The notes under the pieces were generated by a model that ran no database searches, had not been told where the DNA came from, and saw nothing but the letters and a program-made list of their open reading frames with translations. A DNA stretch of 27,561 nt. Source: a virus. A program made the position numbers and the translations under genes. Below are positions 5,686 through 19,591 of this stretch, piece by piece (the first letter of the stretch is position 1; the number at the start of each line of letters is the position of its first letter). Where the stretch lies: the IMG/VR virus record IMGVR_UViG_3300009034_000181, positions 1 to 27,561 of that record. The stretch is one strand, 5' to 3'.

Positions 5686-7014
5686 TTATTCCTCCGCGGG
5701 AGAAACAGGTTTTTCAAGAGGTTTTTCTTCAGGCTTCCCAGTTGGGATTGGTTTTTCGCCGGGAAGGAATTTCTCGGTTTTAGGTTCAGCAAACGGTAAA
5801 ACTTCGGGTGGTAACGTTTCCTGAATGTCTACACCAATATTGATCAAAATCTTTCTCCATTCTTCCGTTGTCATCCCTTTAGCCTCCCAAGTTCGGAACA
5901 ACAATGGAAGGAGATCTTCGACTTTAGGACGTTCCGGTAAACGCCAATTCAGTCTAACTTGAGCCTCAAACGGTTCAAGTCCAGCTTCTAAAACCCAGCG
6001 ATCAAACATGTAAGTTTCATCCATCCGCTTAAGGTATCGTTGCAGGCTGTAAATCTTCCGCTCCCCAAAAGCGACAGCTGCTTTAGCTGATGCTTCGGTA
6101 AAGCCGGGTGACGTAAAGAGTTTGGGAAGAGGAGTTTCCAAAGCAAGGAAATAACTGTTCCATAACGTCTCAACGTAAAAATCTAATCCCCTCATCCGCT
6201 CAGGAATAAGTTGAATAACTTTTGTGTCGGGTACATCCTTTCTCTTAGGATTAATTACAATCCGTCTTCCTTCTGATTTCTTGAGCCCTTCAATCTTACC
6301 GTAATATTCTTGTAATTTCTTGTCCGAAATTCCGCCTAAAACCCACAATTCATTATAAGCACCCATGTTCTCAATTTGATTTACCATAGAACGCTGAATT
6401 CTAGCTTTTATTTGGGCAAATGACGGACGCTCTCCATCACCGGTGTCTAGAGGCGTGCATAACGTTTGAAGAATGCCAACTCCTAAACCTGTCTTTCCTA
6501 TTCGGTTAAAAGAATACCAAAGTAGCTCGTCTGCTGAAAACTTCTCTCTATAAACAGTTACAACATTCAGGAGTTTCTGAATTCTTGCGGTTGTGTCCCA
6601 TTCAAAATTGCTTATGATGGCGGGAGAAATGCGAACTAACTCCTTTCCTGTTTCTCCTTTCCATACAAAACTGTTCCCGTAACCAACAAGGTCTCGACAT
6701 ACTTCTTGATGAAGTTCGTCTACACCATGTTCTTTACACTTTTCATCTACGATTTCTTTAGCCGTCTTTCCTTCAAGAGATTTAGTCTTATAATTAGGGT
6801 TCATTACTGTTTGAAACCCCATTCCAACAGCGATGTCTGTTATGAAGTCGATAGCCGCTCTTGTATCAGGATCTCCACGATGAACATTATTTAGTTCTGC
6901 CCATGTTACTTCAGGATATGTCCTTCCACCGTAAGGTTTAGCTCCTATGAAGAGTGAACCTTCTTTCAGTGTACCCGTTAAGATGTCTTTCCAACGTTTC
7001 AAATACTCACTCAC
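5686..7014 (-). CDS. Portal protein
   Basis: A 442-residue protein, first gene of the minus-strand operon. It shows features of portal proteins: 'DPDTRAAIDFITDIAVGMGF' near the N-terminus, 'VGYGNSFVWKGETGKELVRI' and 'LNVVTVYREKFSADELLWYSF' in the wing region, and a long stem/crown helix pair including 'VETLWNSYFLALETPLPKLF' and 'GFTEASAKAAVAFGERKIYSL'. The last 40 residues are Pro/Glu/Lys-rich and probably disordered. Two in-frame GTG codons lie at 7020 and 7014. AGGTGGT ends eight bases before 7014, so I prefer that one. It would form the DNA gate at the capsid vertex and dock the terminase. Confidence 0.83.
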   Translation of the reverse strand: MSEYLKRWKDILTGTLKEGSLFIGAKPYGGRTYPEVTWAELNNVHRGDPDTRAAIDFITDIAVGMGFQTVMNPNYKTKSLEGKTAKEIVDEKCKEHGVDELHQEVCRDLVGYGNSFVWKGETGKELVRISPAIISNFEWDTTARIQKLLNVVTVYREKFSADELLWYSFNRIGKTGLGVGILQTLCTPLDTGDGERPSFAQIKARIQRSMVNQIENMGAYNELWVLGGISDKKLQEYYGKIEGLKKSEGRRIVINPKRKDVPDTKVIQLIPERMRGLDFYVETLWNSYFLALETPLPKLFTSPGFTEASAKAAVAFGERKIYSLQRYLKRMDETYMFDRWVLEAGLEPFEAQVRLNWRLPERPKVEDLLPLLFRTWEAKGMTTEEWRKILINIGVDIQETLPPEVLPFAEPKTEKFLPGEKPIPTGKPEEKPLEKPVSPAEE

Positions 7015-7069
7015 GCACACACCACCTGTTTGATCAAAAACGATTCAATGTACCTTATTCAAAACACTT

Positions 7070-7077
7070 TATTTAAA
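7070..7077 (-). promoter_or_regulatory. TATA box of the structural operon
   Basis: TTTAAATA on the minus strand matches the archaeal TATA consensus exactly and lies about 55 bases before the portal start. A transcript starting some 25 bases downstream would carry a short leader containing the AGGTGGT ribosome binding site. Confidence 0.55.
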
Positions 7078-7094
7078 CATTTCGTTTGAAGGAA

Positions 7095-7133
7095 GAACAT
7101 TTAATGAGGAACGTTTAATGAGGAACATTCGAT
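7095..7133. repeat. Tandem 14-bp repeats in the divergent promoter, candidate operator
   Basis: GAACATTTAATGAG at 7095-7108 is followed directly by GAACGTTTAATGAG at 7109-7122 and a partial third unit (GAACATTCGAT). They lie between the TATA boxes of the two divergent operons, where a regulator could control both. No regulator gene is identified in this window. Confidence 0.55.
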
Positions 7134-7152
7134 TTTTTCCCGCAAAATTGTT

Positions 7153-7160
7153 TTTATATG
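7153..7160 (+). promoter_or_regulatory. TATA box of the plus-strand operon
   Basis: TTTATATG, preceded by the A-rich GCAAAATTG, which could serve as a TFB-recognition element. It lies 34 bases before the ATG at 7195, giving an expected leader of roughly 10-15 nt that includes GTGATC as ribosome binding site. Confidence 0.55.
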
Positions 7161-7194
7161 GTATTTGGCATAAGAATATATTGAATGTGATCGA

Positions 7195-7515
7195 ATGGCA
7201 TATTCAACTGTAGCAGAAGTAAAAGCCCTCTTAAGAATTACAGATGCTAAATACGATACAGAGATAGGTGTTGCCATTTCTGATGCTGATGTTAAGATTG
7301 ACATCAAACTTATGAATCTTGAATCTGTACTACCGCTTAATCCCATTCCAAATGGGATAGCGAAGGCAAGCAAATTTCTCGCTGCCGCTCTTTGGGCTCG
7401 TTTAAATCCCGGTTCAGAAGGAACTGAAAAACGCGCTGAAATCTACGAGAAGCTTGGGCTAGAATTTTTGGAAGAGTATATAACTGAAAAATACCATACA
7501 GGAACAGTTAAATAG
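7195..7515 (+). CDS. Head-tail connector protein (gp6-like)
   Basis: A 106-residue, mainly helical protein that begins 'MAYSTVAEVKALLRITDAKY'. Phage head-completion adaptors of the HK97 gp6 / YqbG kind have this opening, a short helix that starts with a Thr/Val-x-Glu-Val-Lys motif followed by several helices ('IGVAISDADVKIDIKLM', 'NGIAKASKFLAAALWARL'). It is the first gene of the plus-strand block and precedes the tail genes, the expected place for a connector. GTGATC, matching the archaeal 16S rRNA tail, precedes the ATG by two bases. Assignment is by pattern. Confidence 0.65.
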   Translation: MAYSTVAEVKALLRITDAKYDTEIGVAISDADVKIDIKLMNLESVLPLNPIPNGIAKASKFLAAALWARLNPGSEGTEKRAEIYEKLGLEFLEEYITEKYHTGTVK

Positions 7516-8549: not shown

Positions 8550-11198
8550 ATGACAACACCAACAAAGAATAGGATAAAGCTGGATTATGCGGGAACGCCT
8601 TACGACATAAGTAGCTTCGTTAAGCATGTGGACGTTTGGGGAAGGGGAATAGGAACATTCAAACTCCTTCTCAAGAAAGACGCAACATTAGACTTAACAA
8701 AATTCTTCGGAGATCAGACTATTCACATCGAAGTCAGTGTAGATGGAGGAGTAAATTATGCAACACTCCTTAAAGGATACTTAGACAGTGGTTTAACAGC
8801 TGCTGAGTCAACAGCGGATGCACATCATCTTGAAGGATATGAAGTGAAAGGAAGAAATGTTGCTCAAGATTTCAACAACAAGCAATTCACTAAAGTCTAC
8901 AAGAAACAACCAGCAGATGACATAGTCGAAGATATGCTAACAAATTCAGGAGCAGAAATAACTTTTACTAGTCCAAGTACCGCCCCAGAAATCGCTTTCA
9001 CAGTTAAAGACAAATATTTGGTTCAATCTATTGCAGAGATTTTGGAACAGATAGGATATGACGGGCGAGTAGACGACAGCAAAGTTTGGGATATGTGGCA
9101 ATCTGGAACAAAGAATTCTGGAGGAAACACTATCACACTCAAATCTGTAGCGGGAGAAACAGACAACAACATCATCTCACTCAAGAAGGGAAATTTTGAG
9201 GCGTCTCATATTTGGAACAAAATAAAGATGATTGGACCAAGAGTAAAAGATGGCTGGTCAGAGGAAAACTGTCTTACAGATTGGACTACTAGTGCAAATA
9301 ACGTCTTAACAGATGAATACGTTAAGATTAAAGGTGGATTAGGAATTGCTAGTCTAAGATGTCGCTCAAATCAGGAAGGTTCAACTCCTTACTTACAGCT
9401 GGATTTCCCGAAATTCAACTATGATTATTTGGATTGGCAACAATACGGTTCTGATAGCGCCGTCTTCTGGGTTTATCTGTACAGTTCAGAACTTTCGGAA
9501 CAGGTTCTTTTCTTCAGGCTTAAAGATACAAACGGAGATTGGATTCAATATAAGACAGAAAAGATCCCAAACAACACTTGGGTAAGGGTTTCCGTTCCAA
9601 TAGGAATCAACTGTAATATAGGAAGTGGGATACCCCCAGAAGGAGAATGGGCATTCTTAGATCCCTCAGATACTTTCAACTGGCAGATTAAAAGTATCAG
9701 AATAGGAATGATAACTGATGCGTTGAACGACTGGATAATTGTAGACGGTTTAATGCTCCCAGACGAGATGATCGCCATCGCTGAAGATTCAGGAAGTCAA
9801 ACAGATTACAAAAGACGGGACAAAACAGTCAGAAAATTCGATGTTGAGACTCAAGTACAACTTGACAAAGCATGCGAAGAATATTTGGCGAGGACAAAAA
9901 ATCCAGTCGAATTTTTGGAGATCATTGCTCGAGGTGATGCCGGCATAAAAAACGGTGTAAATTATTGGCTTGAGTGGTACATCGTCTACATTAATGCTCC
10001 AGCTGATGGAATCACCAGTGAGACTTACAGATTCGTAGATTTACACTTTGAGATCTCGGAAACTCCGTTAAGAGACGGATTTGATTTTCTGGTCGAAGTT
10101 AAAGTAATTAAACAATCTGTTCCTTGGAGCCTCGAAGTTTGGTCTCTGCTTATCTCACCTTATCTGGGTGTAGTATGGGGATTAGAATCTAGTCTTCTAA
10201 GTATAGAGCGAGGAGGAGAAATACCTACAGATTTCGTCTATAGCGGTCCAGCAACCCAGATCGTAACTGTCGCTTCTGAACATCTAACGGCTTGCGTGAT
10301 TGCTTCTACGCATGAAACTGTTGCTGTTATCGCTACTGCTCACGTAACCGTTACTGTTGTTGCAACCGCTCATTCAACCAGCTGTTCACTCACAAGTGCT
10401 CACTCAACAACCACTGTTGTTGCAACTGCTCACTCAACAATTACATCTATATCCTCTCCGCACGGAACCGTAACTGTCGTTGCTACGGCTCACGGAATTC
10501 AGACGGTAATTCAAACAAGTCACAGTACATCAGGAGCAATAGCTAGTGGATCAATAGGCTCTACACAAATAGCCAATACTGGGATGAGTGGCGATAATGT
10601 GGTTTCAGATTCTTGGGAGTTACTCCGAAACTTCACGATCAACATGAGTGGATATTCAGAGCCTCTGGTAATTCAGGTTGAGATTGATCGCCAATCTGAC
10701 TGGGCAGATATGTACTTTAGGCTCTATGAAGCAGCAACTATAAGGCATACGTGGCAAGAATATTGTGGAAGCGAACATCCTAACATCCGCAAACTAATAA
10801 TAGTTCCAACCTACTTTGGTTCTGCTACCGTTATTGCTCTGTACGGGCGTACACATGGAGGTCAAAGTGTAACGATTAAAGCCTGTCTTAAAGCCCGAGC
10901 ATACAATCTTCACACTCACGGTTTTTCTACTCAACCCTCAGGACATCCTGTTTCTACTCAACCTTCTAGTCACAGTGTTCAGACTCAACCTAGTGGACAT
11001 TCGATTTCAACTCAGCCTAGTGGACATCCTGTTGATACACAACCTAGTGGACATGGTGTGGCAGTACAACCCAGCGGACATCCTGTTGATACACAACCTA
11101 GTGGACACACGGTTAGTACTCAACCTAGTGATCATACGGTTACAGTTCAACCTTCGGGACATACCGTTACTAACCCATCTCATAGGCACATGCCGTAA
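8550..11198 (+). CDS. Tail hub / receptor-binding fibre protein with carbohydrate-binding-like insert and His-periodic repeats
   Basis: An 882-residue protein. Residues 1-235 resemble a baseplate/tail hub ('YEVKGRNVAQDFNNKQFTKV', 'KKQPADDIVEDML'). Residues 241-400 form a jelly-roll like a carbohydrate-binding module ('LTDWTTSANNVLTDEYVKIK', 'WVRVSVPIGINC', 'WQIKSIRIGM'), after which the hub fold seems to resume until about 540. Residues 572-661 are nine 10-residue repeats with one His each. Residues 670-790 form another beta domain. The last 92 residues are nine 9-residue repeats of the type V-S-T-Q-P-S-G-H-P plus a degenerate end. The architecture suggests a hub that carries its own host-binding fibre. 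The ATG is two bases after the previous stop. Confidence 0.72.
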   Translation: MTTPTKNRIKLDYAGTPYDISSFVKHVDVWGRGIGTFKLLLKKDATLDLTKFFGDQTIHIEVSVDGGVNYATLLKGYLDSGLTAAESTADAHHLEGYEVKGRNVAQDFNNKQFTKVYKKQPADDIVEDMLTNSGAEITFTSPSTAPEIAFTVKDKYLVQSIAEILEQIGYDGRVDDSKVWDMWQSGTKNSGGNTITLKSVAGETDNNIISLKKGNFEASHIWNKIKMIGPRVKDGWSEENCLTDWTTSANNVLTDEYVKIKGGLGIASLRCRSNQEGSTPYLQLDFPKFNYDYLDWQQYGSDSAVFWVYLYSSELSEQVLFFRLKDTNGDWIQYKTEKIPNNTWVRVSVPIGINCNIGSGIPPEGEWAFLDPSDTFNWQIKSIRIGMITDALNDWIIVDGLMLPDEMIAIAEDSGSQTDYKRRDKTVRKFDVETQVQLDKACEEYLARTKNPVEFLEIIARGDAGIKNGVNYWLEWYIVYINAPADGITSETYRFVDLHFEISETPLRDGFDFLVEVKVIKQSVPWSLEVWSLLISPYLGVVWGLESSLLSIERGGEIPTDFVYSGPATQIVTVASEHLTACVIASTHETVAVIATAHVTVTVVATAHSTSCSLTSAHSTTTVVATAHSTITSISSPHGTVTVVATAHGIQTVIQTSHSTSGAIASGSIGSTQIANTGMSGDNVVSDSWELLRNFTINMSGYSEPLVIQVEIDRQSDWADMYFRLYEAATIRHTWQEYCGSEHPNIRKLIIVPTYFGSATVIALYGRTHGGQSVTIKACLKARAYNLHTHGFSTQPSGHPVSTQPSSHSVQTQPSGHSISTQPSGHPVDTQPSGHGVAVQPSGHPVDTQPSGHTVSTQPSDHTVTVQPSGHTVTNPSHRHMP
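10263..10532 (+). repeat. Nine 30-bp coding repeats with one histidine per unit
   Basis: His codons lie exactly 30 bases apart at 10281, 10311, 10341, 10371, 10401, 10431, 10461, 10491 and 10521. The units read like V-V-A-T-A-H-S-T-x-T. The pattern suggests a fibrous beta structure with stacked His rings. DNA identity between units is partial, so the array is old or under selection at protein level. Confidence 0.9.
10923..11195 (+). repeat. 27-bp coding minisatellite (Q-P-S-G-H repeats)
   Basis: Nine full units of 27 bases (10923-11165) encode x-x-T-Q-P-S-G-H-x. A tenth degenerate unit ends in HRHMP at the stop codon. Units at 11031 and 11085 share long identical stretches, so unit number may change by slippage or recombination. 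Confidence 0.92.
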
Positions 11199-11227
11199 AT
11201 GTAAAAAGATAGGAGGAATGAAAAAAG

Positions 11228-11461
11228 ATGTCAAAGAAAAAACCGAGAATACGAGTCAAGCGTAGATGGACTCAAGGAGGACAGATCGTATTGAACACCG
11301 AGCTAAACTACGGGAACGAAGTAAAAAACGTGACAATGTCTTTTCCACTTGAAGTCATCAAGAACAAGGAACAATTCAAAGCCATGCTCGAAGATGCGTA
11401 TGAACAGAACAGGACAAGAAAAGATGTGGACTTAAGGTCGGTTCCAACAGAAATCGAGTAG
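11228..11461 (+). CDS. Small basic protein, hypothetical
   Basis: A 77-residue protein, basic at the start (MSKKKPRIRVKRRWTQGG), then a short beta segment ('QIVLNTELNYGNEVKNVTMS') and a helix ('KNKEQFKAMLEDAYEQNR'). AGGAGG lies 11 bases upstream of the ATG. It is the first gene after the tail fibre and may be nucleic-acid-binding, but no known fold is recognised. Confidence 0.6.
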   Translation: MSKKKPRIRVKRRWTQGGQIVLNTELNYGNEVKNVTMSFPLEVIKNKEQFKAMLEDAYEQNRTRKDVDLRSVPTEIE

Positions 11462-11473
11462 GAGAGGAAACGT

Positions 11474-11638
11474 TTGGACAAGAAAGTATTCAAAGATTTG
11501 GAAGGGATGACAAAACGATATAAGAAATTAGCGAAGAAACTAAAGCTTACATTAACTGAAACCTTGCTAGTCGTAATTTCAAGAGAATTGATAATACTGA
11601 ACGAGAAAACTCTCAAAGAAGAACTGGTGCTAGATTAG
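11474..11638 (+). CDS. 54-residue helical protein (TTG start)
   Basis: Opens with TTG at 11474 behind GGAGAGGAAA and ends one base before the ATG of the Cas4-like gene, so it fills the gap exactly. The product is a basic amphipathic helix followed by a hydrophobic helix ('LTETLLVVISRELIIL') and an acidic end. It looks like a small helical-bundle protein. Function unknown. The tight packing and ribosome binding site support translation. Confidence 0.5.
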   Translation: MDKKVFKDLEGMTKRYKKLAKKLKLTLTETLLVVISRELIILNEKTLKEELVLD

Positions 11639-12385
11639 ATGTCCATCTTCCGTTCTTTTCCTATTCAACCTTCTCATCTTGGTAGTTACAGGTCTCATCT
11701 ACTTGCATGGTGGTACTGGTGCGCTGAACAAGCATATTGGAAAGCTATGGGAATACGCAGACAGAAGAAACCAAGTGTAGAAATGCAGGTAGGAACAAAC
11801 ATCCATGATCTCATACATAAACTTGGAAGAAGATGGACGTGGGAAACTAAATTCCTTAAAGAGTTAGAGAAGTACCGAGATGAAGGATACGGGTTAATAC
11901 GCAAAGTAGGGAACGATCAGATTTACGAAGATATAGAAGGGCACCCAGACGAGTTTCAAGTCTCCATCTCAAAGTGGGTTTCTGTTGTTGAGTTGAAGAC
12001 AACCGCAATAAAGAACATGAAGTTCTATAATCGTTGGAAGCTGCCCGTAGCCATATTTCAGACGCAAGTCTATTGCTACATTCTTGATCCTATCCTACAA
12101 GAAATGGGTTATAGACTTGACAAGATGCACGTTGTAAGCGTCTGGTACACAAAATACAGGAAGAGAGCGGGAAAGAAGGAGTTAGCTGAGTACGGTCCTT
12201 TGCAGGACGTTCCAATATTTTACTACCCCAAGCAAACAGAGGAAGATATAAAGCGTGTTTTAAACGCTTTTCGTGATCCGTCACTCATCATCCCCCCAAG
12301 GAGTTTTCCTAGAGGTTTCAAGTGTAAGCAGTGTCCTAAAATCTACAAGGAGAGATGTCAGTTTTGGAACCAAAAAAGAAAATAG
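11639..12385 (+). CDS. Cas4/RecB-like PD-(D/E)XK nuclease with Fe-S cysteines
   Basis: A 248-residue protein with the signature of the Cas4/Dna2/RecB nuclease family: 'VGTNIH' with H56, 'GHPDEF' with D104, 'VVELKTT' with E118 and K120, and four cysteines placed like the Fe-S ligands of Cas4 (C28 near the N-terminus; C229, C232 and C240 near the C-terminus). Viral members process DNA ends in replication, recombination or packaging, or are used against host defence. There are no cas genes nearby, so a viral DNA-processing role is more likely than CRISPR adaptation. The next gene overlaps its end by 31 bases. Confidence 0.78.
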   Translation: MSIFRSFPIQPSHLGSYRSHLLAWWYWCAEQAYWKAMGIRRQKKPSVEMQVGTNIHDLIHKLGRRWTWETKFLKELEKYRDEGYGLIRKVGNDQIYEDIEGHPDEFQVSISKWVSVVELKTTAIKNMKFYNRWKLPVAIFQTQVYCYILDPILQEMGYRLDKMHVVSVWYTKYRKRAGKKELAEYGPLQDVPIFYYPKQTEEDIKRVLNAFRDPSLIIPPRSFPRGFKCKQCPKIYKERCQFWNQKRK

Positions 12386-12624
12386 TCGGTGAGATGTGTC
12401 GGTGCGGACACCTCAAGTTGGTGCACGACAACTTGCAATTTGCTGAAAGACATTTAGAAAGAGATAAAGAAGGCGGACACATAGTGCAGAGAAACGTTAA
12501 AGATTACAAGAATCAAGCAACTGTCTTAGGTCACGGCGCTTGTCAACTTTGTCCGTGTCCTAAGTTCACTTGGACAAAATTCATCTATGAAGGTGAGAAG
12601 TTATGGGAAAGAGGGAAGTGCTAG
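12355..12624 (+). CDS. Zinc-binding protein, hypothetical
   Basis: An 89-residue protein with two Cys/His clusters: 'CRCGHLKLVH' at residues 15-24 and 'HGACQLCPCPKF' at residues 60-71. Together they could hold one or two zinc ions. AAGGAGAG directly precedes the ATG at 12355. A later ATG at 12394 would drop 13 residues and remove the overlap with the nuclease gene. It probably binds nucleic acid or protein. It is one of a run of five very small genes before the modification cluster. Confidence 0.55.
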   Translation: MSVLEPKKKIVGEMCRCGHLKLVHDNLQFAERHLERDKEGGHIVQRNVKDYKNQATVLGHGACQLCPCPKFTWTKFIYEGEKLWERGKC

Positions 12625-12704
12625 CACAGATGGTTATAAAGGGAGTCATTCTTGGGCGTTATGCCTTCCTAGTCCACGCCCTCCCCAAGAAGGTGAAGAT
12701 ATGA
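12603..12704 (+). CDS. 33-residue protein, overlapping both neighbours
   Basis: ATG at 12603 has AAGGTGAG six bases upstream. The frame ends with TGA at 12702-12704, inside the ATGA that starts the next gene, a typical coupling in this operon. The product is a single hydrophobic/basic helix (MVIKGVILGRYAFLVHALPK). It overlaps the previous gene by 22 bases. Evidence is only positional, and chance is not excluded. Confidence 0.3.
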   Translation: MGKREVLAQMVIKGVILGRYAFLVHALPKKVKI

Positions 12705-12907
12705 AGACAGAAAAAGAAGGCTGGGCATACGTTCACTACCTATATGGTGTGACAAGGAAGGCTCACTACATTAAAGATAATCGTTCCTTGTGCGGACGCT
12801 ATATATGGCTTGGTGACGTTGAAGAAGGAAAAGATGACAGCCCAGATAATTGCGCGTCATGTAAGCGAAAACTGAAAAAGTTAAAAGAAAAGAAGGTGAA
12901 AAAGTGA
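12701..12907 (+). CDS. Small zinc-finger-like protein
   Basis: A 68-residue protein starting at the ATG at 12701, preceded by AAGGTGAAG; upstream in-frame codons lack such a signal. It has His and Cys at 'AHYI...SLCGRY' and 'NCASC' followed by a Lys-rich tail, a common pattern in small viral zinc proteins that bind nucleic acid. Its stop overlaps the GTG start of the next small gene (GTGA). Confidence 0.55.
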   Translation: MKTEKEGWAYVHYLYGVTRKAHYIKDNRSLCGRYIWLGDVEEGKDDSPDNCASCKRKLKKLKEKKVKK

Positions 12908-13041
12908 AAGTCTATTTTTGCAAGGAATGTTACTTGTTGTCTCCCTCTACGGCACGCACGTATCTAACAAAAGAAGCCCTGCTTGCCGATCATCCAGTAT
13001 TAAAAGATTATCCAGAGTTAATAGGGGAAAAGGAAGTGTAA
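12904..13041 (+). CDS. 45-residue protein (GTG start) before queE
   Basis: GTG at 12904 overlaps the previous stop by four bases and AAGGTGAAAA lies just upstream. The frame closes with TAA at 13039, three bases before the queE ATG. It has one CxxC-like pair (FCKEC) and a helical C-terminal half (LTKEALLADHPVLKDYPELI). It fills the space that a spurious upstream extension of queE would occupy. Function unknown. Confidence 0.5.
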   Translation: MKVYFCKECYLLSPSTARTYLTKEALLADHPVLKDYPELIGEKEV

Positions 13042-13043
13042 AA

Positions 13044-13721
13044 ATGCAAGTAAACGAAATCTTCTACAGCGTGCAAGGTGAAGGATTAAACATCGGTATG
13101 CCACAGATCTTCATTCGCCTGTTCGGCTGCAACCTGCGCTGTCCATGGTGTGACTCGAAATTCAGCTATGAAGGAGACAACTTTGAAACCTTGAATGTTC
13201 GCCAGATCATGGAAAGAATTGGAAAATATCCGTGCAAGGCGGTTTCGATCACAGGTGGAGAACCGCTTGTGCAAAAGGAAGAACTACTCAAACTTGTGAA
13301 ACAGTTGAAAGCTGATGGTTACTACGTCCAACTACACACTAACGGGACAATATGGGCACCTGAAATCTTTAAACTCTGTGACTTCATCTCGATGGACATG
13401 AAAGCGCCAAGTGCAGGAATGAAGAGTAACAGGGATTTCATGCAGGATTTATGGGAACTTCCCAACGCTTACGGTGATCGCATTAAGTTTGAAGTCAAAG
13501 TTGTCGTGCAGACAGGTCAAGACCTAGCGTTTGCTTTACGGACAGTTTATACAAAATGTCCAACCACACTGATCGTCCAACCTTGCGTGGTAAACCCAGA
13601 AAAGGAAATTCCTGAATTGCAGAAGTTGATAGAGAAAATCTTGACGTTCCGAGCACAAGACATTCGAATCCTTCCGCAACTACAGAAACTTGTCTATCCA
13701 AAATATTGGAGAGGAAAGTAA
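13044..13721 (+). CDS. queE: 7-carboxy-7-deazaguanine synthase (radical SAM)
   Basis: A 225-residue radical SAM enzyme. It converts 6-carboxytetrahydropterin to 7-carboxy-7-deazaguanine (CDG), the step that forms the 7-deaza ring. Visible features: 'IFYSVQGEG' at the N-terminus, the cluster motif CxxxCxxC as C29, C33 and C36 in 'CNLRCPWCDS', and 'TGGEPL' (residues 70-75) for SAM binding. Length is normal for QueE. The frame is open 126 bases upstream, but the ATG at 13044 matches the family N-terminus and follows AGGAAGTG, so the extension is rejected. It begins the modification cluster, with a 48-residue gene and queD following without gaps. Confidence 0.92.
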   Translation: MQVNEIFYSVQGEGLNIGMPQIFIRLFGCNLRCPWCDSKFSYEGDNFETLNVRQIMERIGKYPCKAVSITGGEPLVQKEELLKLVKQLKADGYYVQLHTNGTIWAPEIFKLCDFISMDMKAPSAGMKSNRDFMQDLWELPNAYGDRIKFEVKVVVQTGQDLAFALRTVYTKCPTTLIVQPCVVNPEKEIPELQKLIEKILTFRAQDIRILPQLQKLVYPKYWRGK

Positions 13722-13868
13722 TTGGGTTGTGAAGAGTGCGCACATCTCAGAATTGAACCAAGAGCTGTTCCGCCATGGGAATGTCACCTTCCAAATCTTA
13801 AGAATCGACCAAGGATAATTGAACGGAAACGATACAAGAAAGGATGCGAATATAGAAGTGAAAAATAA
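13722..13868 (+). CDS. 48-residue Cys-rich protein between queE and queD
   Basis: TTG at 13722 immediately follows the queE stop, with GAGGAAAG as ribosome binding site, and the stop shares one base with the queD ATG. The product has four cysteines ('CEEC' at 3-6, 'WECHL' at 21, 'KKGCEY' at 42) plus histidines, enough for one zinc site, and a basic middle. Its exact fit between two pathway genes suggests that it is translated with them. It may be a small nucleic-acid-binding or accessory factor; function unknown. Confidence 0.55.
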   Translation: MGCEECAHLRIEPRAVPPWECHLPNLKNRPRIIERKRYKKGCEYRSEK

Positions 13869-14242
13869 TGGAAATAACACTCATAGTTAGAGACCATTTC
13901 GAAGCGGCACACTTCATTCCAAAGCATAAGAAATGCGGGAAGATGCACGGACACAGCTACAAAGTAGAAGTGGAATTCATAGGAAAAATTCCATACGCCA
14001 AAACAATGCTGACAGACTTTGCTTATCTCAAGAGAATCCTAGCTAAAGTCTTGTCCCGTCTTGACCATAAAACCTTAAACGATGAACTTGCTGTTCCAAC
14101 AACTGCTGAGTTCATAGCGCGTTGGATTTACATGCAGATAAGAGAGAAGTTTGAGAGGGAAGGAACCAAGAAAATGCAAATCCTCAGCGTAACAGTTTGG
14201 GAAACAGACAAATACGGAGCAAGGTATGAGGGAGAAGAATGA
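13868..14242 (+). CDS. queD: 6-carboxytetrahydropterin synthase
   Basis: A 124-residue member of the PTPS/QueD family. It converts 7,8-dihydroneopterin triphosphate to 6-carboxytetrahydropterin. Zinc ligands are visible as H15 ('FEAAHF'), H27 and H29 ('MHGHSY'); the catalytic Cys is C23 ('KKCGKMHGH'). 'LDHKTLND' (65-72), E81 in 'PTTAEF' and E112 in 'VWET' complete the active site. Length is typical. The ATG shares a base with the preceding stop, and the next gene starts at the ATGA overlap at its end, so translation is coupled. Confidence 0.92.
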   Translation: MEITLIVRDHFEAAHFIPKHKKCGKMHGHSYKVEVEFIGKIPYAKTMLTDFAYLKRILAKVLSRLDHKTLNDELAVPTTAEFIARWIYMQIREKFEREGTKKMQILSVTVWETDKYGARYEGEE

Positions 14243-15072
14243 GAGCAGAATTGGAATATTACAGAGACATGTTACCGACACCTGTAAAGTATCTACCAAC
14301 ATACGGTTGTTACCTCAAGTGTGAGTTTCTGTTACCCAGCGGTTCACACAAAGACAGAGAGACAGTGTATTTGATTAAGTCTGGGAAAGAGAAAGGTCAA
14401 GATTGCGTGATCGCTACAAGTGGAAATGCAGGAATATCACTTGCATACTATCTAAAGAAGAAAGCGCATGTTGTTGTTCCTGAAACCTGCAGTTCAAAGA
14501 AGCAGGAAATCATACGCGGTTACGATGCAGACTTAATTATCTGGGGAAAAAGCTATGCTGAAGCGTGGATTGAAGCTGAAAAACTGGCAAAATGGAAGAG
14601 ATGGAGAAACGTGTCTGCAGGAGTTGAATCCCTCAGGTACGTGGGACACATGGGAATACCAAGAGAATTAAGTGGTGAAGGCAACTTTGATGTCATTATT
14701 GTTCCCGGCGGGAACCACACTTTAGCGTATGGAATAGCTGAAGGAGCAAAGATTTACATGCCACACACTCAGATAGTATCGGTTGTTTTGCCAAATCACC
14801 CATTCTTTATGAAGGATTCAAGAGGAATAGAATTGACACCTTCCCAGATTGCAGGTTACGAGTCAATAGCAGTAGGAAAGGAAGGCGTAGAATGGAGGTT
14901 CACAGAAAACAAGATGGTAGACTGTGCAACATGCTCTGTTGAATCTTTAGACAGAGTCAGGAAGAGACATGAGAACACAGCTCTTGATCTAGTTGTCTGT
15001 CTAGCTTTAGAAGTGTCTAAATTACTTAGTGGAAGAAAGAAAGTAGTAATAGGAACGGGATTAAGAAGATGA
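14239..15072 (+). CDS. Threonine-synthase-like PLP enzyme (fold type II)
   Basis: A 277-residue PLP-dependent enzyme. K38 in 'SGSHKDRE' matches the PLP lysine of the threonine synthase motif S-F-K-D-R. 'ATSGNAGISLAYY' (S61-G65) is the substrate-carboxylate loop, 'IVPGGNHTLAYG' (G157-N159) the PLP-phosphate loop, and 'VIGTGLRR' the C-terminal segment like the 'TGhGlK' end of threonine synthases. It is shorter than cellular threonine synthase (usually 350 or more residues) and lacks the N-terminal zinc ribbon and swivel region. It starts on the queD stop (ATGA) and ends on the queC start, so it is locked into the modification cluster. PLP chemistry is not part of the known preQ0 route. Substrate unknown; it could make or attach an amino-acid-like group. 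Confidence 0.85.
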   Translation: MRAELEYYRDMLPTPVKYLPTYGCYLKCEFLLPSGSHKDRETVYLIKSGKEKGQDCVIATSGNAGISLAYYLKKKAHVVVPETCSSKKQEIIRGYDADLIIWGKSYAEAWIEAEKLAKWKRWRNVSAGVESLRYVGHMGIPRELSGEGNFDVIIVPGGNHTLAYGIAEGAKIYMPHTQIVSVVLPNHPFFMKDSRGIELTPSQIAGYESIAVGKEGVEWRFTENKMVDCATCSVESLDRVRKRHENTALDLVVCLALEVSKLLSGRKKVVIGTGLRR

Positions 15073-15839
15073 TGCCACATCCATACTTTGGAAATCCATA
15101 CTACATACCGCGATTCCTAATGGCAAGACCAGAAGTCGTAGTCTTAACATCGGGCGGAATTGACAGTTGCGCTTTATGTGCATATCTGAAGCGGGAACGA
15201 TGGGACGTTTATCCTCTATTTGTGGATTATGGACAGTTAGGAAGCGCTGAAGAAGAACTGGCAGTTCGCACATTTTTGCAAGAAATAAATTTAAACGCAA
15301 AAATCGTCAGAGTGCGCAATCCAGAATTAAAAATCCCAATGACAGGACACGGAAGACAACCACAGAGTACAGATGAGGATTTCAAAGAGACAAAAGATCT
15401 CGACTGGGTTCCACATCGCAACTTCGTATTTCTGGTTCTAGCAGCTCAGTATGCAAGCTTGATCGGTACAAGAACGTTAGCTATCGGTTCACACAAAGAA
15501 GAATGGTGGGAGCAATTTCCAGATTCTAAACGGGAAACGTTAGATCAAATAGCGAAAGCTTTAACGTTATCCGAAGGAAAAGGAAAGAAATGGGAAATAC
15601 TGACGCCTTTCGTTGATAGAGGATGGTACAAATGGGATGTCGTTAAATGGTGTGCAAAGAATAAATTACCACTCAAATACACTTACACTTGCTTCAAAGG
15701 AAGACCCAAACTTAAGAGAAAGACTGAAGACGTTAGAAAGAAGTTGAAACACTGTGGTCTTTGCAGAGGATGTTACGACAGGAAAGCGGTCTTTATACGA
15801 GCAAAAGTTTCTGATCCAACCATGTATGAGGTGGAATAA
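15069..15839 (+). CDS. queC: 7-cyano-7-deazaguanine (preQ0) synthase
   Basis: A 256-residue PP-loop ATPase. It uses ATP and ammonia to turn CDG into preQ0. The PP-loop is 'SGGIDS' at residues 28-33. 'GSHKEEWWEQFPDSKRE' is the family substrate loop. The zinc knuckle is C208 with C229, C232 and C235 ('HCGLCRGCYDRK'). The first 17 residues (MMPHPYFGNPYYIPRFL) are longer than usual. An ATG at 15120 would give the standard start, but 15069 keeps the ATGA coupling with the previous gene. There is no glutamine-amidotransferase fusion, so it should stop at preQ0. Confidence 0.92.
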   Translation: MMPHPYFGNPYYIPRFLMARPEVVVLTSGGIDSCALCAYLKRERWDVYPLFVDYGQLGSAEEELAVRTFLQEINLNAKIVRVRNPELKIPMTGHGRQPQSTDEDFKETKDLDWVPHRNFVFLVLAAQYASLIGTRTLAIGSHKEEWWEQFPDSKRETLDQIAKALTLSEGKGKKWEILTPFVDRGWYKWDVVKWCAKNKLPLKYTYTCFKGRPKLKRKTEDVRKKLKHCGLCRGCYDRKAVFIRAKVSDPTMYEVE

Positions 15840-16937
15840 ATGAAACTCTACTTCGCTGTCGGCGCAAATTGGTACGCTTACAGAGCACTGCGATCAGTGG
15901 GAGGGAAGCGCATGCTCATCTCGTTTGCTTATGTTCCCCGCCAAGTGCTCTCTGGGAAGGAAACATTCTACAAGTTTTACGGAGAAGACATCGACCCATT
16001 CATAGACAGCGGAGCATACACAGTAAAACACACCGGCAAAGAAGTCAAATTAGAAGATTACATTGATTTCTTGAAACAGCACAACTTTCCCGTCTACGCG
16101 AACCTAGACGTTATCGGAAGCTGGGAAAAAACACTGAAAAACCAACAGTTAATGGAAAAAGAAGGGTTAAAACCGTTACCCGTATGGCACGAAAGAGATC
16201 CTTTTGAACAGTTGAAAGCTTACGTTGGAAGTTACGACTACGTAGCTCTAGGATTCAAGAGTAGAAGTAGCAAGGAAAGGGCGAACCTGTCAGCTACAAT
16301 ATTTGACCAATATCCCGACACGAAATTCCACATGTTCGCTATCACCCAACCCGAAGTTATGATGCAGTATCCCTTCTATTCAGTAGACAGCAGTACATGG
16401 TTAAATTCGATCAAGTATGGAGCACTACTGACACCATGGGGATACGTTCACGTAGCAAGGGAGAGACTAGGTGGAAAAAGACATGTTCGGAACATGACTA
16501 GGTTACAGAAGATAAAATGGGAAACCTATTTTGAAGGTTTCGGATTCAAGCTAGAAGACTTACTAGGAGACGACTACACAGTAAGGGCAGCTTACAGCGC
16601 AAAATTCTTCATAGCGTTAGAGACGGCTATCAACAACTATCCACTACCCAAGAAAACCCGTAGGATGTTAGACTCATTCTATAGGGAAAAGAAGATAGAC
16701 ACGATCAGTTACAGAATTTTAGAGTATGCACGCTTACACAAGACGTTCCATCAAGACGAAATTGCATTGTTAGCAGCTAACGAAGAATGGAATTGTCAGA
16801 TAGAAACGATCTTCCGCACGTTAAGAAAGCTTGCAGAAGATGAGAACGCAAGAGTAAGGCATGTAGGTGGGGGATATTGGAAATATCTGCTTCCACATGA
16901 CGACAAGACGGAGAGTTTAACACAATGGTTCGGATAA
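15840..16937 (+). CDS. dpdA: DNA 7-deazaguanine transglycosylase (phage DpdA-like)
   Basis: A 365-residue protein related to tRNA-guanine transglycosylases. D56 in 'FIDSGAYT' corresponds to the proton-shuttling Asp of the 'DSGGFQ' motif. D90 ('ANLDVIGSW') and D183 ('YSVDSSTWLN') lie where the base-binding Asp and the nucleophile are expected. The zinc motif of tRNA enzymes (CxCxxC...H) is absent, which marks the viral DpdA group. Residues 260-365 look like a helical/winged-helix DNA-binding part. It should replace G by preQ0 in viral DNA. The order queE-queD-PLP-queC-dpdA-folE is continuous. The next gene overlaps its end by 13 bases. Confidence 0.85.
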   Translation: MKLYFAVGANWYAYRALRSVGGKRMLISFAYVPRQVLSGKETFYKFYGEDIDPFIDSGAYTVKHTGKEVKLEDYIDFLKQHNFPVYANLDVIGSWEKTLKNQQLMEKEGLKPLPVWHERDPFEQLKAYVGSYDYVALGFKSRSSKERANLSATIFDQYPDTKFHMFAITQPEVMMQYPFYSVDSSTWLNSIKYGALLTPWGYVHVARERLGGKRHVRNMTRLQKIKWETYFEGFGFKLEDLLGDDYTVRAAYSAKFFIALETAINNYPLPKKTRRMLDSFYREKKIDTISYRILEYARLHKTFHQDEIALLAANEEWNCQIETIFRTLRKLAEDENARVRHVGGGYWKYLLPHDDKTESLTQWFG

Positions 16938-19591
16938 AAATTCCAACAAAACTTGGAGTGGCACTTGAAGACATGTTCAAAGACCTAGGAGCAAGTACAG
17001 AAGTTGTAGAACATACACCCGCAAGGTACATTAACGCATTATTGGAACTATTAGACGGATACGAACAAGACCCAGAAGAAGTATTAAAAACATTCGATCC
17101 GCCAAAACAGGGTGTAGTCGTTTATGAAACATGCGAGTTTTACAGCCTTTGCGAGCATCACATGCTACCATTCTTCGGAAGGGTTCATATAGGATACAGA
17201 TCAAGAACGAAGTGCATAGGACTCAGCAAATTAGCCCGTTTAGTAGACGTTTATGCTCATCGGTTACATTTGAATTGGAAAAAGTGGGCTAACAACGTAT
17301 TGCGAGAAAGCAGAACAGACATGAAGTTCTTTGCTCGCAAGTATTTCAACATGGGGCTAGCAGTCATTCCTATGGAGATCACTTGGAGCGAAGAAAAGAA
17401 GAAATGGGTGAAAATACCGCTTGTTGATAAGTGGGCACAGTGGAAAGAGACAGCGCAGACAGAAGAAGAATTCAATAATCAGCGATGGGACGAAGCAAAC
17501 GGTTTTGCAGTAATTCTTGGAAAGACAAAAGACGGACCATACTTAGGAGTAATAGATTACGACATCAAGGAAATAAGTGAAGAAGTCAAGGAAAAAGGAC
17601 TAAAGATCCTAAAAACCTTTCCCGAGACAAAGGTTGAGAAAACCGTTTCAAACGGGTTACATTACATCTACTTCTCTCTCGTTTCTGTTAAAGAACGCCA
17701 CACAGAGTTCCATGACACTTACGGTCTTGAACTTTTCGGTTCTGGACACCTAGTAGTCATGGCGCCAAGTAAGGGTTATTCAGTGTTAAAAGCGGACGCA
17801 CTGACAGTTAAAGACTTAACAAGTTTGTTTCTGAGTAGTATACCTAAGAAGAAGAAAAAGAGGGAAAGAAGGAGAAGGAAAAAAGAGGAGAAGAAGGAGA
17901 AGGTGCGTCCATGTGTGGAAGCTTTACTAGCCAGTAGCACAAATCTGCCTCACGATCACCGCTTAATAATAGCTTTTGAGTACTTAAATATTGGAATGAA
18001 GCTAGCAGATGTAGTCGCACTATTCAATAAACAGAAGGATTTCGATGAGAAGACAACAGCCAAAGCAGTGAAGCAGGCAATCAAAGCTGAGTATCAACCA
18101 TACGGCGAAGAAAGGCTCAAAGCTCTAATGACCGAATTAGGATTATGCTCACCAGAATGCAAAGAGTACGGAAAAGAGGTTGAGTACACGCCTGCAGCAG
18201 TCTTAAAAGACGGAACAATATGCGAGCAAGGGTATGACGGTGAAGACGTCTACTATATCGTCTACAATCCTGAGACCAAAGAGATCACAACAAGAGCGCA
18301 TATTGAGTTGGAAGATAAAGTCTACATGCCGATAATGAACGAAGACGTAAAAACTGGGCAAGTATTATTTCCTGTAGAGGCAATCGAGTATGAAACAGAC
18401 GCAAAATTAAGTAAGGAAATCAGAGATTATTTGAACCGATGGCATGAACAACTTGATCCGGTACAACGAGAGTTAGACGTGAACTACATAAAGGAAACAT
18501 GGATCAAAGATTTGCTTCCGCAAATAGGTTACAGAAGAGACTTAGCAAAATTTGGACACGGAAAGTCAACGTTCTTAGAGGTGTTAGGTTCAATTTGTTA
18601 TCGTCCATTCAACGTTGCAGGTTGCAGTACAGAAGCGGCAATACGCAGAACGTTCCACATGTGGAAAGGAACAGCAGTAATAGATGAAGCAGACTTTGCA
18701 AACAGTGATCTCTTCGCGGTTGTGATCAAGATTTTAAACATCGGATTCGACAGCAAACTTGGCTACTATCGGTGTTGTGACGATAAAGACCCCAAGAAAG
18801 TCCTTTCATTCTACGTCTACGGACCAAAAGTCATAGGGACAAGAGAAAGATATAGGGATCTCGCTCTTGAATCTCGTTGTCTCACCTTTTTCGGGAGGAT
18901 GAACATTCATCCGATGCCATTATTCAGAATGAAGCGATGGAAAGCAGAAGTCATGGAATTACAGGGTAAAATGCTCCTTTGGCGGTTCCGAAACTACCAT
19001 AAATTGCTTGAAAAGATGGATACATTAGAAGACATCAGTTCAAAAGAGAAGATTTACGGGCATGAATTAGACGTTTCAAGCAGAGTCAAACAGGTTGTTT
19101 TGCCACTTCTCTTGATCACAGAAGAAAAAGAGGTAATAAGAGGCTTAGTAAACTTTGCCCGCGCTTTCAACAGTAACCTCCAAAATTTGGATGAAGAGAA
19201 AGGATGGGAAGAACAACTTGAATTAGCCATCCAAAATCTGCAAGAGGAAGGATTGTTGAAGCATACCAAGGATATTAAGCATACTATAGGAGGGGGCAGA
19301 TTTTACGAAATTTATTTGGTAGACGCTGCTGAAAGTCTAGGAATCGAGGAAGTCAAAGACAGAACGTACTGGTCGAGAGGATTAGCGAAATACCTAAGAA
19401 AAAGGACTGATTTCCCCATCTTGAAAGGATACAAAAACAGGTCATACGTTCTTATACCCGCTTTCTTCGTTGAGAGTGTATTAAAAAAGCACGCAAGCGC
19501 TCCATACGATGCTTCAGATGCTTCGCATGCTTCAAAGCAAACAGAAGAGAAAGTTGATTGGGAGGAAGAAATAAGTGATTCTGATAGCTAA
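16925..19591 (+). CDS. Fusion: N-terminal half of GTP cyclohydrolase I + primase-polymerase + AAA+/SF3-like helicase
   Basis: An 888-residue protein. Residues 1-117 match the first half of FolE: 'TPARYINALLELLDGYEQDP', 'CEFYSLCEHHMLPFFG' with Zn ligands C76 and H79, 'GLSKLARLVDVYAHRL'. The second half of FolE, with its essential H-x-C-M zinc/catalytic segment, is missing. From M133 ('FFARKYFNMGLAVIPM') it continues as a bifunctional primase-polymerase with D211 and D213 ('VIDYDI'), H246 ('NGLHYIYF') and 'GSGHLVVMAPS'. A Lys/Arg-rich linker (about 310-330), a Cys pair ('LCSPEC') and a helicase domain follow, with P-loop 'FGHGKST', Walker B 'AVIDEADF' and a 'LESRCLTF' arginine motif. The P-loop has Ala instead of the first Gly. 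The C-terminus carries 9-bp repeat codons. It should prime and unwind at the viral fork. Confidence 0.82.
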   Translation: MVRIKIPTKLGVALEDMFKDLGASTEVVEHTPARYINALLELLDGYEQDPEEVLKTFDPPKQGVVVYETCEFYSLCEHHMLPFFGRVHIGYRSRTKCIGLSKLARLVDVYAHRLHLNWKKWANNVLRESRTDMKFFARKYFNMGLAVIPMEITWSEEKKKWVKIPLVDKWAQWKETAQTEEEFNNQRWDEANGFAVILGKTKDGPYLGVIDYDIKEISEEVKEKGLKILKTFPETKVEKTVSNGLHYIYFSLVSVKERHTEFHDTYGLELFGSGHLVVMAPSKGYSVLKADALTVKDLTSLFLSSIPKKKKKRERRRRKKEEKKEKVRPCVEALLASSTNLPHDHRLIIAFEYLNIGMKLADVVALFNKQKDFDEKTTAKAVKQAIKAEYQPYGEERLKALMTELGLCSPECKEYGKEVEYTPAAVLKDGTICEQGYDGEDVYYIVYNPETKEITTRAHIELEDKVYMPIMNEDVKTGQVLFPVEAIEYETDAKLSKEIRDYLNRWHEQLDPVQRELDVNYIKETWIKDLLPQIGYRRDLAKFGHGKSTFLEVLGSICYRPFNVAGCSTEAAIRRTFHMWKGTAVIDEADFANSDLFAVVIKILNIGFDSKLGYYRCCDDKDPKKVLSFYVYGPKVIGTRERYRDLALESRCLTFFGRMNIHPMPLFRMKRWKAEVMELQGKMLLWRFRNYHKLLEKMDTLEDISSKEKIYGHELDVSSRVKQVVLPLLLITEEKEVIRGLVNFARAFNSNLQNLDEEKGWEEQLELAIQNLQEEGLLKHTKDIKHTIGGGRFYEIYLVDAAESLGIEEVKDRTYWSRGLAKYLRKRTDFPILKGYKNRSYVLIPAFFVESVLKKHASAPYDASDASHASKQTEEKVDWEEEISDSDS
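19257..19292 (+). repeat. Degenerate repeat-family match inside the helicase domain
   Basis: GAAGCATACC and TTAAGCATAC lie 18 bases apart (two units of 9) and encode KHTKDIKHT. They resemble the KHTKHTKHS-encoding units at 27184. Degenerate and possibly coincidental, though the spacing fits the family period. Confidence 0.35.
19508..19534 (+). repeat. Three 9-bp repeats in the primase C-terminus
   Basis: GATGCTTCA, GATGCTTCG and CATGCTTCA in tandem encode DASDASHAS just before the acidic C-terminus of the primase-helicase. They are the reverse complement of the AAGCAT-type units at 5582-5672 and 27184-27544. Confidence 0.8.

Follow-up and report, generated by a model that had tools for sequence, protein, structure and literature searches.

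A PLP enzyme and a QueC-like ligase in a viral 7-deazaguanine operon: a single sighting of a gene pair that may yield a new type of modified DNA base

Analysis of a 27.6-kb linear fragment of viral DNA (hereafter the window, meaning the whole stretch analysed) revealed a gene for a fold-type II PLP enzyme (PALP) within a 7-deazaguanine DNA-modification operon, directly followed by a gene for a QueC-like ATP-dependent ligase with an altered substrate motif. The pair, seen in this one instance, may produce a DNA base modified in a new way. We tentatively favour the view that the two genes form a cassette, in which the PLP enzyme would supply an amine that the QueC-like ligase joins to 7-carboxy-7-deazaguanine (CDG) before insertion by DpdA. 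To our knowledge, no fold-type II PLP enzyme has been described in operons for 7-deazaguanine DNA modification. The presence of such an enzyme in this operon, proposed in a first-pass annotation, was confirmed by the Pfam PALP match and by verification of the que and dpdA neighbours.

Organization of the operon

The major head protein, head-maturation protease, terminase profiles and family B DNA polymerase (PolB) assign the window to a tailed virus. The genes in its middle part are arranged on the plus strand in the order nuclease-like gene, queE, queD, PALP, queC, dpdA, folE-primPol and polB. QueE (CDG synthase; 13038-13721, with an alternative ATG start possible at 13044) matches the PHROG QueE-like profile (3.4e-39) and aligns at the CxxxCxxC radical SAM motif. 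QueD (6-carboxytetrahydropterin synthase; 13868-14242) matches Pfam PTPS (9e-32) and is 56% identical to QueD of the related virus L173. The QueC-like protein (15069-15839; a second candidate start lies at 15120) matches Pfam QueC with 114 bits (7.6e-33). The DpdA-like DNA-guanine transglycosylase (15840-16937) matches the PHROG queuine tRNA-ribosyltransferase (6e-49), and its DSGA, LDVIG and SVDSS motifs align with those of phage DpdA. That a DpdA with conserved transglycosylase motifs adjoins QueD and QueE identifies the locus as a deazaguanine pathway.

Only the N-terminal part of FolE (GTP cyclohydrolase I; 16925-17275, plus strand) is encoded. Its Pfam match (1.1e-28) covers profile positions 17-111 of 179, the alignment shows that the third zinc ligand and the KHxCMxxRGV motif are missing, and no remnant was found elsewhere. 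The pathway is thus less complete than had been assumed: QueD, QueE, a QueC-family protein and DpdA are present, but FolE is truncated, and if the pathway runs at all, its first step has to be provided by another source.

The PALP open reading frame (14239-15072, plus strand) comprises 277 codons without internal stops. Its ATG at 14239 lies on the end of queD (...GAATGA, ending at 14242), and its TGA (15070-15072) overlaps the queC ATG at 15069. The gene and both of its borders are therefore as first annotated, and its deazaguanine neighbours were corroborated by Pfam and PHROG matches of QueE, QueD, QueC, DpdA and the FolE half-domain. Since overlaps of at least four bases are common in this genome (g23842/g24174, TerL/g25987, g25987/g26292, PrimPol/PolB and DpdA/FolE), those of PALP with the que genes indicate an operon and not a function. 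GC3 is alike in PALP (0.367) and QueC (0.362) and below that of the flanking genes; other window genes are lower still, so this likeness is no proof of joint transfer.

The PLP enzyme belongs to a rare archaeal family

The PALP protein belongs to PF00291, as indicated by its Pfam score (106.8 bits against a cut-off of 35), K38, N63 and its fold. Distinguished motifs include the PLP lysine K38, SGNAG (61-65), R133, T273-G274 and a PGGNHTLAYG loop. The lysine and the SGNAG loop are kept, as previously noted, and an alignment of 24 PALP proteins shows no variation at K38, R40, G62 and N63. The annotated "GGN phosphate loop" exists as sequence, but it is not the usual glycine-rich loop, and the closest kin read PS[AG][ND][HL] at this place. 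An AlphaFold2 model (pLDDT 87.9, pTM 0.86) resembles threonine deaminase and serine racemase in a fold search (TM ~0.8), and the best profile matches among solved structures are L-serine dehydratases, followed by threonine synthase. PALP is an intact fold-type II PLP enzyme.

In a phylogenetic tree the protein joins seven archaeal members (100/99) on the threonine-synthase side (95/85), apart from IlvA/TdcB/serine dehydratase and CysK. The description "threonine-synthase-like" applies to this placement only, as assignment to threonine synthase was rejected by score (62.5 bits against an NCBIfam cut-off of 266; archaeal kin, 66-95 against 266-421). Serine/threonine dehydratase or racemase was likewise rejected (59.7 against 331 bits, and a position outside the IlvA/TdcB/SD clade, 100/99), although the nearest fold and PDB profile matches are of the dehydratase/racemase type; so was cysteine synthase (43 against 344 bits, with CysK in a separate clade). 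No NCBIfam model came near its cut-off with this protein. The protein shares its fold, PLP lysine and SGN loop with threonine synthase, serine dehydratase and threonine deaminase, and a C-terminal TG with threonine synthase, but differs from all three in being far under the curated cut-offs, shorter, provided with another phosphate loop and placed in its own clade. R133 aligns with an Arg of threonine synthase 2zsj, which we take to bind the substrate phosphate; serine dehydratases have Ile there. The substrate would be an amino acid, perhaps a phosphorylated one.

A genome collection was searched for relatives with a nucleotide pattern that encodes the motif E...P[ST]GSHKDR, which led to five archaeal chromosomal genes, four from Bathyarchaeota and one from Methanomethylicota. 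These proteins are short (about 280 aa) and share 35-39% identity with the window PALP over the full length (35-40% for the family). The family was found in five of 257 genomes of the class of genome G003 (four of them already reached by the pattern), where an E-value gap from about 1e-138 to 1e-26 separates it from any other PALP, and in three of 398 genomes of a phylum sample. It is thus rare and patchy, and resides on chromosomes of Bathyarchaeia and Methanomethylicia. This kinship suggests that the virus infects an archaeon near Bathyarchaeia; a PolB search of genome contigs found no provirus or host. The window gene thereby draws attention to a family of archaeal PLP enzymes that is uncharacterised.

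A role of this family as the threonine synthase of the cell was rejected, as a separate ThrC is present in five of six family-bearing genomes. None of the cellular genes has que genes beside it; their neighbours, as identified by eye from translations, include genes for arginyl-tRNA synthetase, FEN1, a PPC-domain protein and two kinds of transporter, one a polar amino-acid ABC transporter and the other of thiamine type. The seven archaeal genomes reached by the pattern, five of which carry the family, gave weak QueC-profile matches only; strong matches occur in 217 of the 398 phylum genomes. In genome G204, one cellular member heads a run of polar amino-acid ABC transporter genes (L330, 6611-10494), and a second copy (L331) adjoins a ThiT-like protein. 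A second archaeal PALP family, distinct from that of the window, was also observed (L266, L271, L272, L282, L283, L292 and L299; about 280-300 aa, with PTGSHKDRE and ASTGNAAIS motifs), and a Micrarchaeota genome (L270, 3606-5744) encodes a SHKDRE-type PALP domain fused to an ATP-grasp domain, PurD-like by eye.

The QueC-like ligase has altered substrate residues

Canonical QueC is characterized by SGGxDS, YxQxHxxE, VPxRN, YPDC, a conserved Lys and C(x)8CxxCxxC (PMC13329287). Alanine changes of the Tyr of YxQxHxxE, of YPDC or of the zinc region, or of the Arg of VPxRN, kill the activity; the latter two tyrosines are Tyr131 and Tyr189 of E. coli QueC, and Y131F leaves partial activity (PMC13329287).

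The ATP and zinc motifs are retained in the window protein: SGGIDS (S28-S33), VPHRN (V114-N118), K188 and C208, C229, C232 and C235, together with Y54 and Q56. The canonical substrate residues are not, with FPDS (150-153) in place of YPDC, F209 in place of the zinc-region Tyr and T157 in place of Phe, and 20 residues instead of about seven separate the first two cysteines. In a column survey of 157 other QueCs, F150, S153, F209 and T157 occurred in two, one, one and six proteins, respectively. The replacement of His58 of YxQxHxxE by Gly was discarded as an argument, since all 20 archaeal QueCs carry Ala at this position, which is hence not informative.

The protein scores 88 bits against TIGR00364 of NCBIfam (cut-off 150). 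Among solved structures, its best match by sequence is Cap9, with 43 bits, and QueC follows with 34 and 22 bits. The order is the reverse for the control QueCs: three from viruses and one from an archaeon score 85-112 bits to QueC and 52-59 to Cap9, and a phage Gat-QueC scores 55 and 42, respectively. A fold search with the model (pLDDT 81.5) likewise had Cap9 at the top and QueC next. In the tree, the branch of the window protein equals that of phage Gat-QueC in length (3.84 and 3.9; median 0.88). Identification as QatC was rejected (23.8 against 280 bits), as was identification as Cap9: the protein lacks both Cap9 motifs, H(x)4YxDC and CE(x)6C, even though its best match in the PDB is Cap9.

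The gene pair in related viruses and other deazaguanine loci

The nearest viruses found are L173 and L093, with identities of 61 and 58% for PolB, 56 and 43% for QueD, 44 and 42% for DpdA, and 68 and 50-54% for TerL, respectively. Both keep QueE, QueD, DpdA, FolE, PrimPol and PolB in the same order as the window, and PALP and QueC are absent from the gap between queD and dpdA, which holds no remnants of either, and from the whole of both contigs, which are incomplete. PALP and QueC thus appear, from incomplete contigs, to be present or absent as a pair across the three viruses, a pattern that fits gain as well as loss. QueC is also lacking within about 10 kb in 15 of 85 loci with DpdA, QueE and QueD, some of these loci being copies. 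The QueC-less DpdA phage Bipper has been suggested to carry CDG (PMC6884629). L173 and L093 represent a small lineage of archaeal-type tailed viruses without QueC, whose DNA may carry 7-carboxy-7-deazaguanine.

Scans of viral contigs for PALP, DpdA, PolB, QueC and QueE yielded 157 loci that each carry two or more deazaguanine genes; some of these loci are overlapping copies of one contig. A PALP of the window type was absent from these approximately 157 other loci and from all 173 loci fetched via deazaguanine genes or PolB (searched with both the family and the general PALP models). Twenty archaeal queC loci, covered to about 1.5 kb on each side, contained no PALP of any kind. Single-protein scans of viral contigs with PALP and TerL found no kin, and the single, weak match of the DpdA scan was spurious. 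The PALP-queC pairing in a deazaguanine operon is therefore a single instance, and the recurrence in other viruses expected by the first-pass annotation was not borne out: two relatives and about 157 loci without the gene are, literally, the outcome which that annotation had named as speaking against its proposal. Nor did a search of the literature turn up a viral threonine synthase associated with preQ0.

One locus, L075, was considered as a second case and rejected, as its PALP is an ordinary CysK. There, cysteine synthase adjoins QueD, QueE and FolE (9944-13592; gene content marine-type by eye), with no QueC or DpdA in that stretch.

Possible functions of the PALP-QueC pair

QueC activates the carboxylate of CDG with ATP and adds ammonia, and in its relatives Cap9 and QatC the amine joined to this carboxylate comes from a protein (PMC13329287). 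On cytosines of DNA, CmoY attaches glycine to a carboxylate; a glutaminase domain is present in some CmoY relatives, which would use ammonia (PMC12783734). With these precedents, the predicted cooperation of PALP and QueC would proceed as follows. QueD and QueE, both present, should make CDG. The PLP enzyme would act on an amino acid, perhaps phosphorylated, and supply either an amino acid or, by elimination, ammonia. The QueC-like ligase would adenylate the CDG carboxylate and join the amine as an amide, and DpdA would insert the resulting base into the viral DNA, hiding it from host nucleases. The cassette would then sit in one member of an archaeal tailed-virus lineage, the other known members of which have enzymes predicted to reach CDG only. 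The earlier annotation had proposed that an unusual amino acid or amine is joined to preQ0, or that a pathway intermediate is decorated; the paired absence and the altered QueC motif favour the latter version, as the joining of an amine to an intermediate, with CDG, the direct precursor of preQ0, as the predicted intermediate. A narrower form of the proposal, in which the amino group that is joined to CDG belongs to an amino acid made by the PLP enzyme, would yield amino-acid amides of 7-carboxy-7-deazaguanine, an undescribed class of DNA bases; we regard this form as rather unlikely.

The cassette reading is favoured by the adjacency of PALP and QueC with an ATGA overlap and their common absence from L173 and L093, by a QueC that keeps its ATP and zinc sites while its changed substrate residues each recur in at most six of 157 others, by Cap9 preceding QueC as the best solved relative, unlike in the five control QueCs, and by the kept catalytic signature and good model fold of PALP. 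It is weakened by the single instance, by the cellular family lacking que neighbours, by the about 157 deazaguanine loci without PALP, by a QueC with neither the Cap9 nor the QatC signature and by the incompleteness of the relatives' contigs. Almost as likely is that PALP is an unlinked, host-derived auxiliary metabolic gene, co-transcribed between queD and queC and altering amino-acid supply, and that QueC is an ordinary, though fast-evolving, preQ0 synthase; a normal QueC that evolves fast would look similar. The closest kin of PALP are indeed chromosomal genes of Bathyarchaeia and Methanomethylicia, one of them heading a polar amino-acid transporter operon; the window protein retains the motifs of that cellular family, recurrence with deazaguanine genes is lacking, overlaps are normal in this genome, and many phages carry PALP genes such as CysK. 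The pairing of PALP with QueC relative to the two related viruses, and the changed QueC substrate residues, argue against such a separate role.

In some thymidine hypermodifications, PLP-type action takes place after insertion into DNA. Action of the window enzyme directly on the base, the nucleotide or a DNA-linked amino acid after insertion, and not before QueC, would agree with its position in the operon and with an R133 that could bind an anionic group, but its signature is shared with cellular enzymes, to which such a substrate is not available, and the compact 277-aa protein carries no DNA-binding addition; we regard this course as very unlikely. We also consider it improbable that the operon is decaying and makes nothing. 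The missing C-terminal part of FolE, the loss of essential QueC residues and the very long QueC branch would fit decay; nevertheless, all frames are open, the motifs of QueD, QueE, DpdA and PALP are kept, QueC still has its ATP and zinc residues, and the host could supply dihydroneopterin triphosphate.

Comparison with known systems

DNA modification by preQ0/DpdA 7-deazaguanine systems is found in phages and archaeal viruses, e.g. CAjan, Rosebush and HVTV-1 (PMC6884629, PMC8651126). Like these, the window has QueD, QueE, a QueC-family protein, DpdA and a FolE sequence clustered in a tailed virus; it differs in the extra PLP enzyme between queD and queC, the altered QueC substrate motif and the truncated FolE. 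Gat-QueC of phage 9g and BSTP-type phages resembles the window protein in being a diverged QueC with a similar branch length and a dedicated nitrogen source (in the window, a proposed one), which is a fused glutaminase domain in Gat-QueC and would be a separate PLP enzyme here. Cap9 and QatC, of CBASS type IV and Qat defence, respectively (PMC13329287), are likewise QueC-family ATP-dependent ligases, and Cap9 is the nearest solved structure; however, they modify protein N-termini in defence, have no PLP partner, and possess motifs that the window QueC lacks. The CmoA-CmoX-CmoY cytosine hypermodification shares the logic of a carboxylate handle, an ATP-dependent ligase and an amine (glycine or ammonia), but involves a different base, a different ligase family and ligation on DNA, and the available part of its description reports no amine-making enzyme (PMC12783734).

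If a QueC-family ligase with an amine-making partner does join other amines to CDG, the chemical range of viral DNA modification would be wider, and would be linked to the defence enzymes Cap9 and QatC, which perform the same chemistry on proteins. The DNA 7-deazaguanines known to us so far are confined to small variations on a single nitrile, amide or amidine group.

Other features of the analysed genomes

In the window, the FolE piece is fused in frame to a PrimPol-type primase (17321-19591, plus strand; Pfam Prim-Pol, 9.6e-08), the joined frame spanning 16925-19591. L173 and L093 have a complete, separate FolE and another PrimPol, to which the window PrimPol gave no tblastn match. The FolE-PrimPol junction would either mark a recombination event or be a fusion that serves a new role. 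Upstream of queE, L093 contains two ORFs (5971-6495 and 6778-7245) that by eye resemble LAGLIDADG homing endonucleases. A long tail-type gene of the window (8550-11198) contains blocks of tandem repeats, with units of about 30 nt at 10270-10498 and of 27 nt at 10905-11168.
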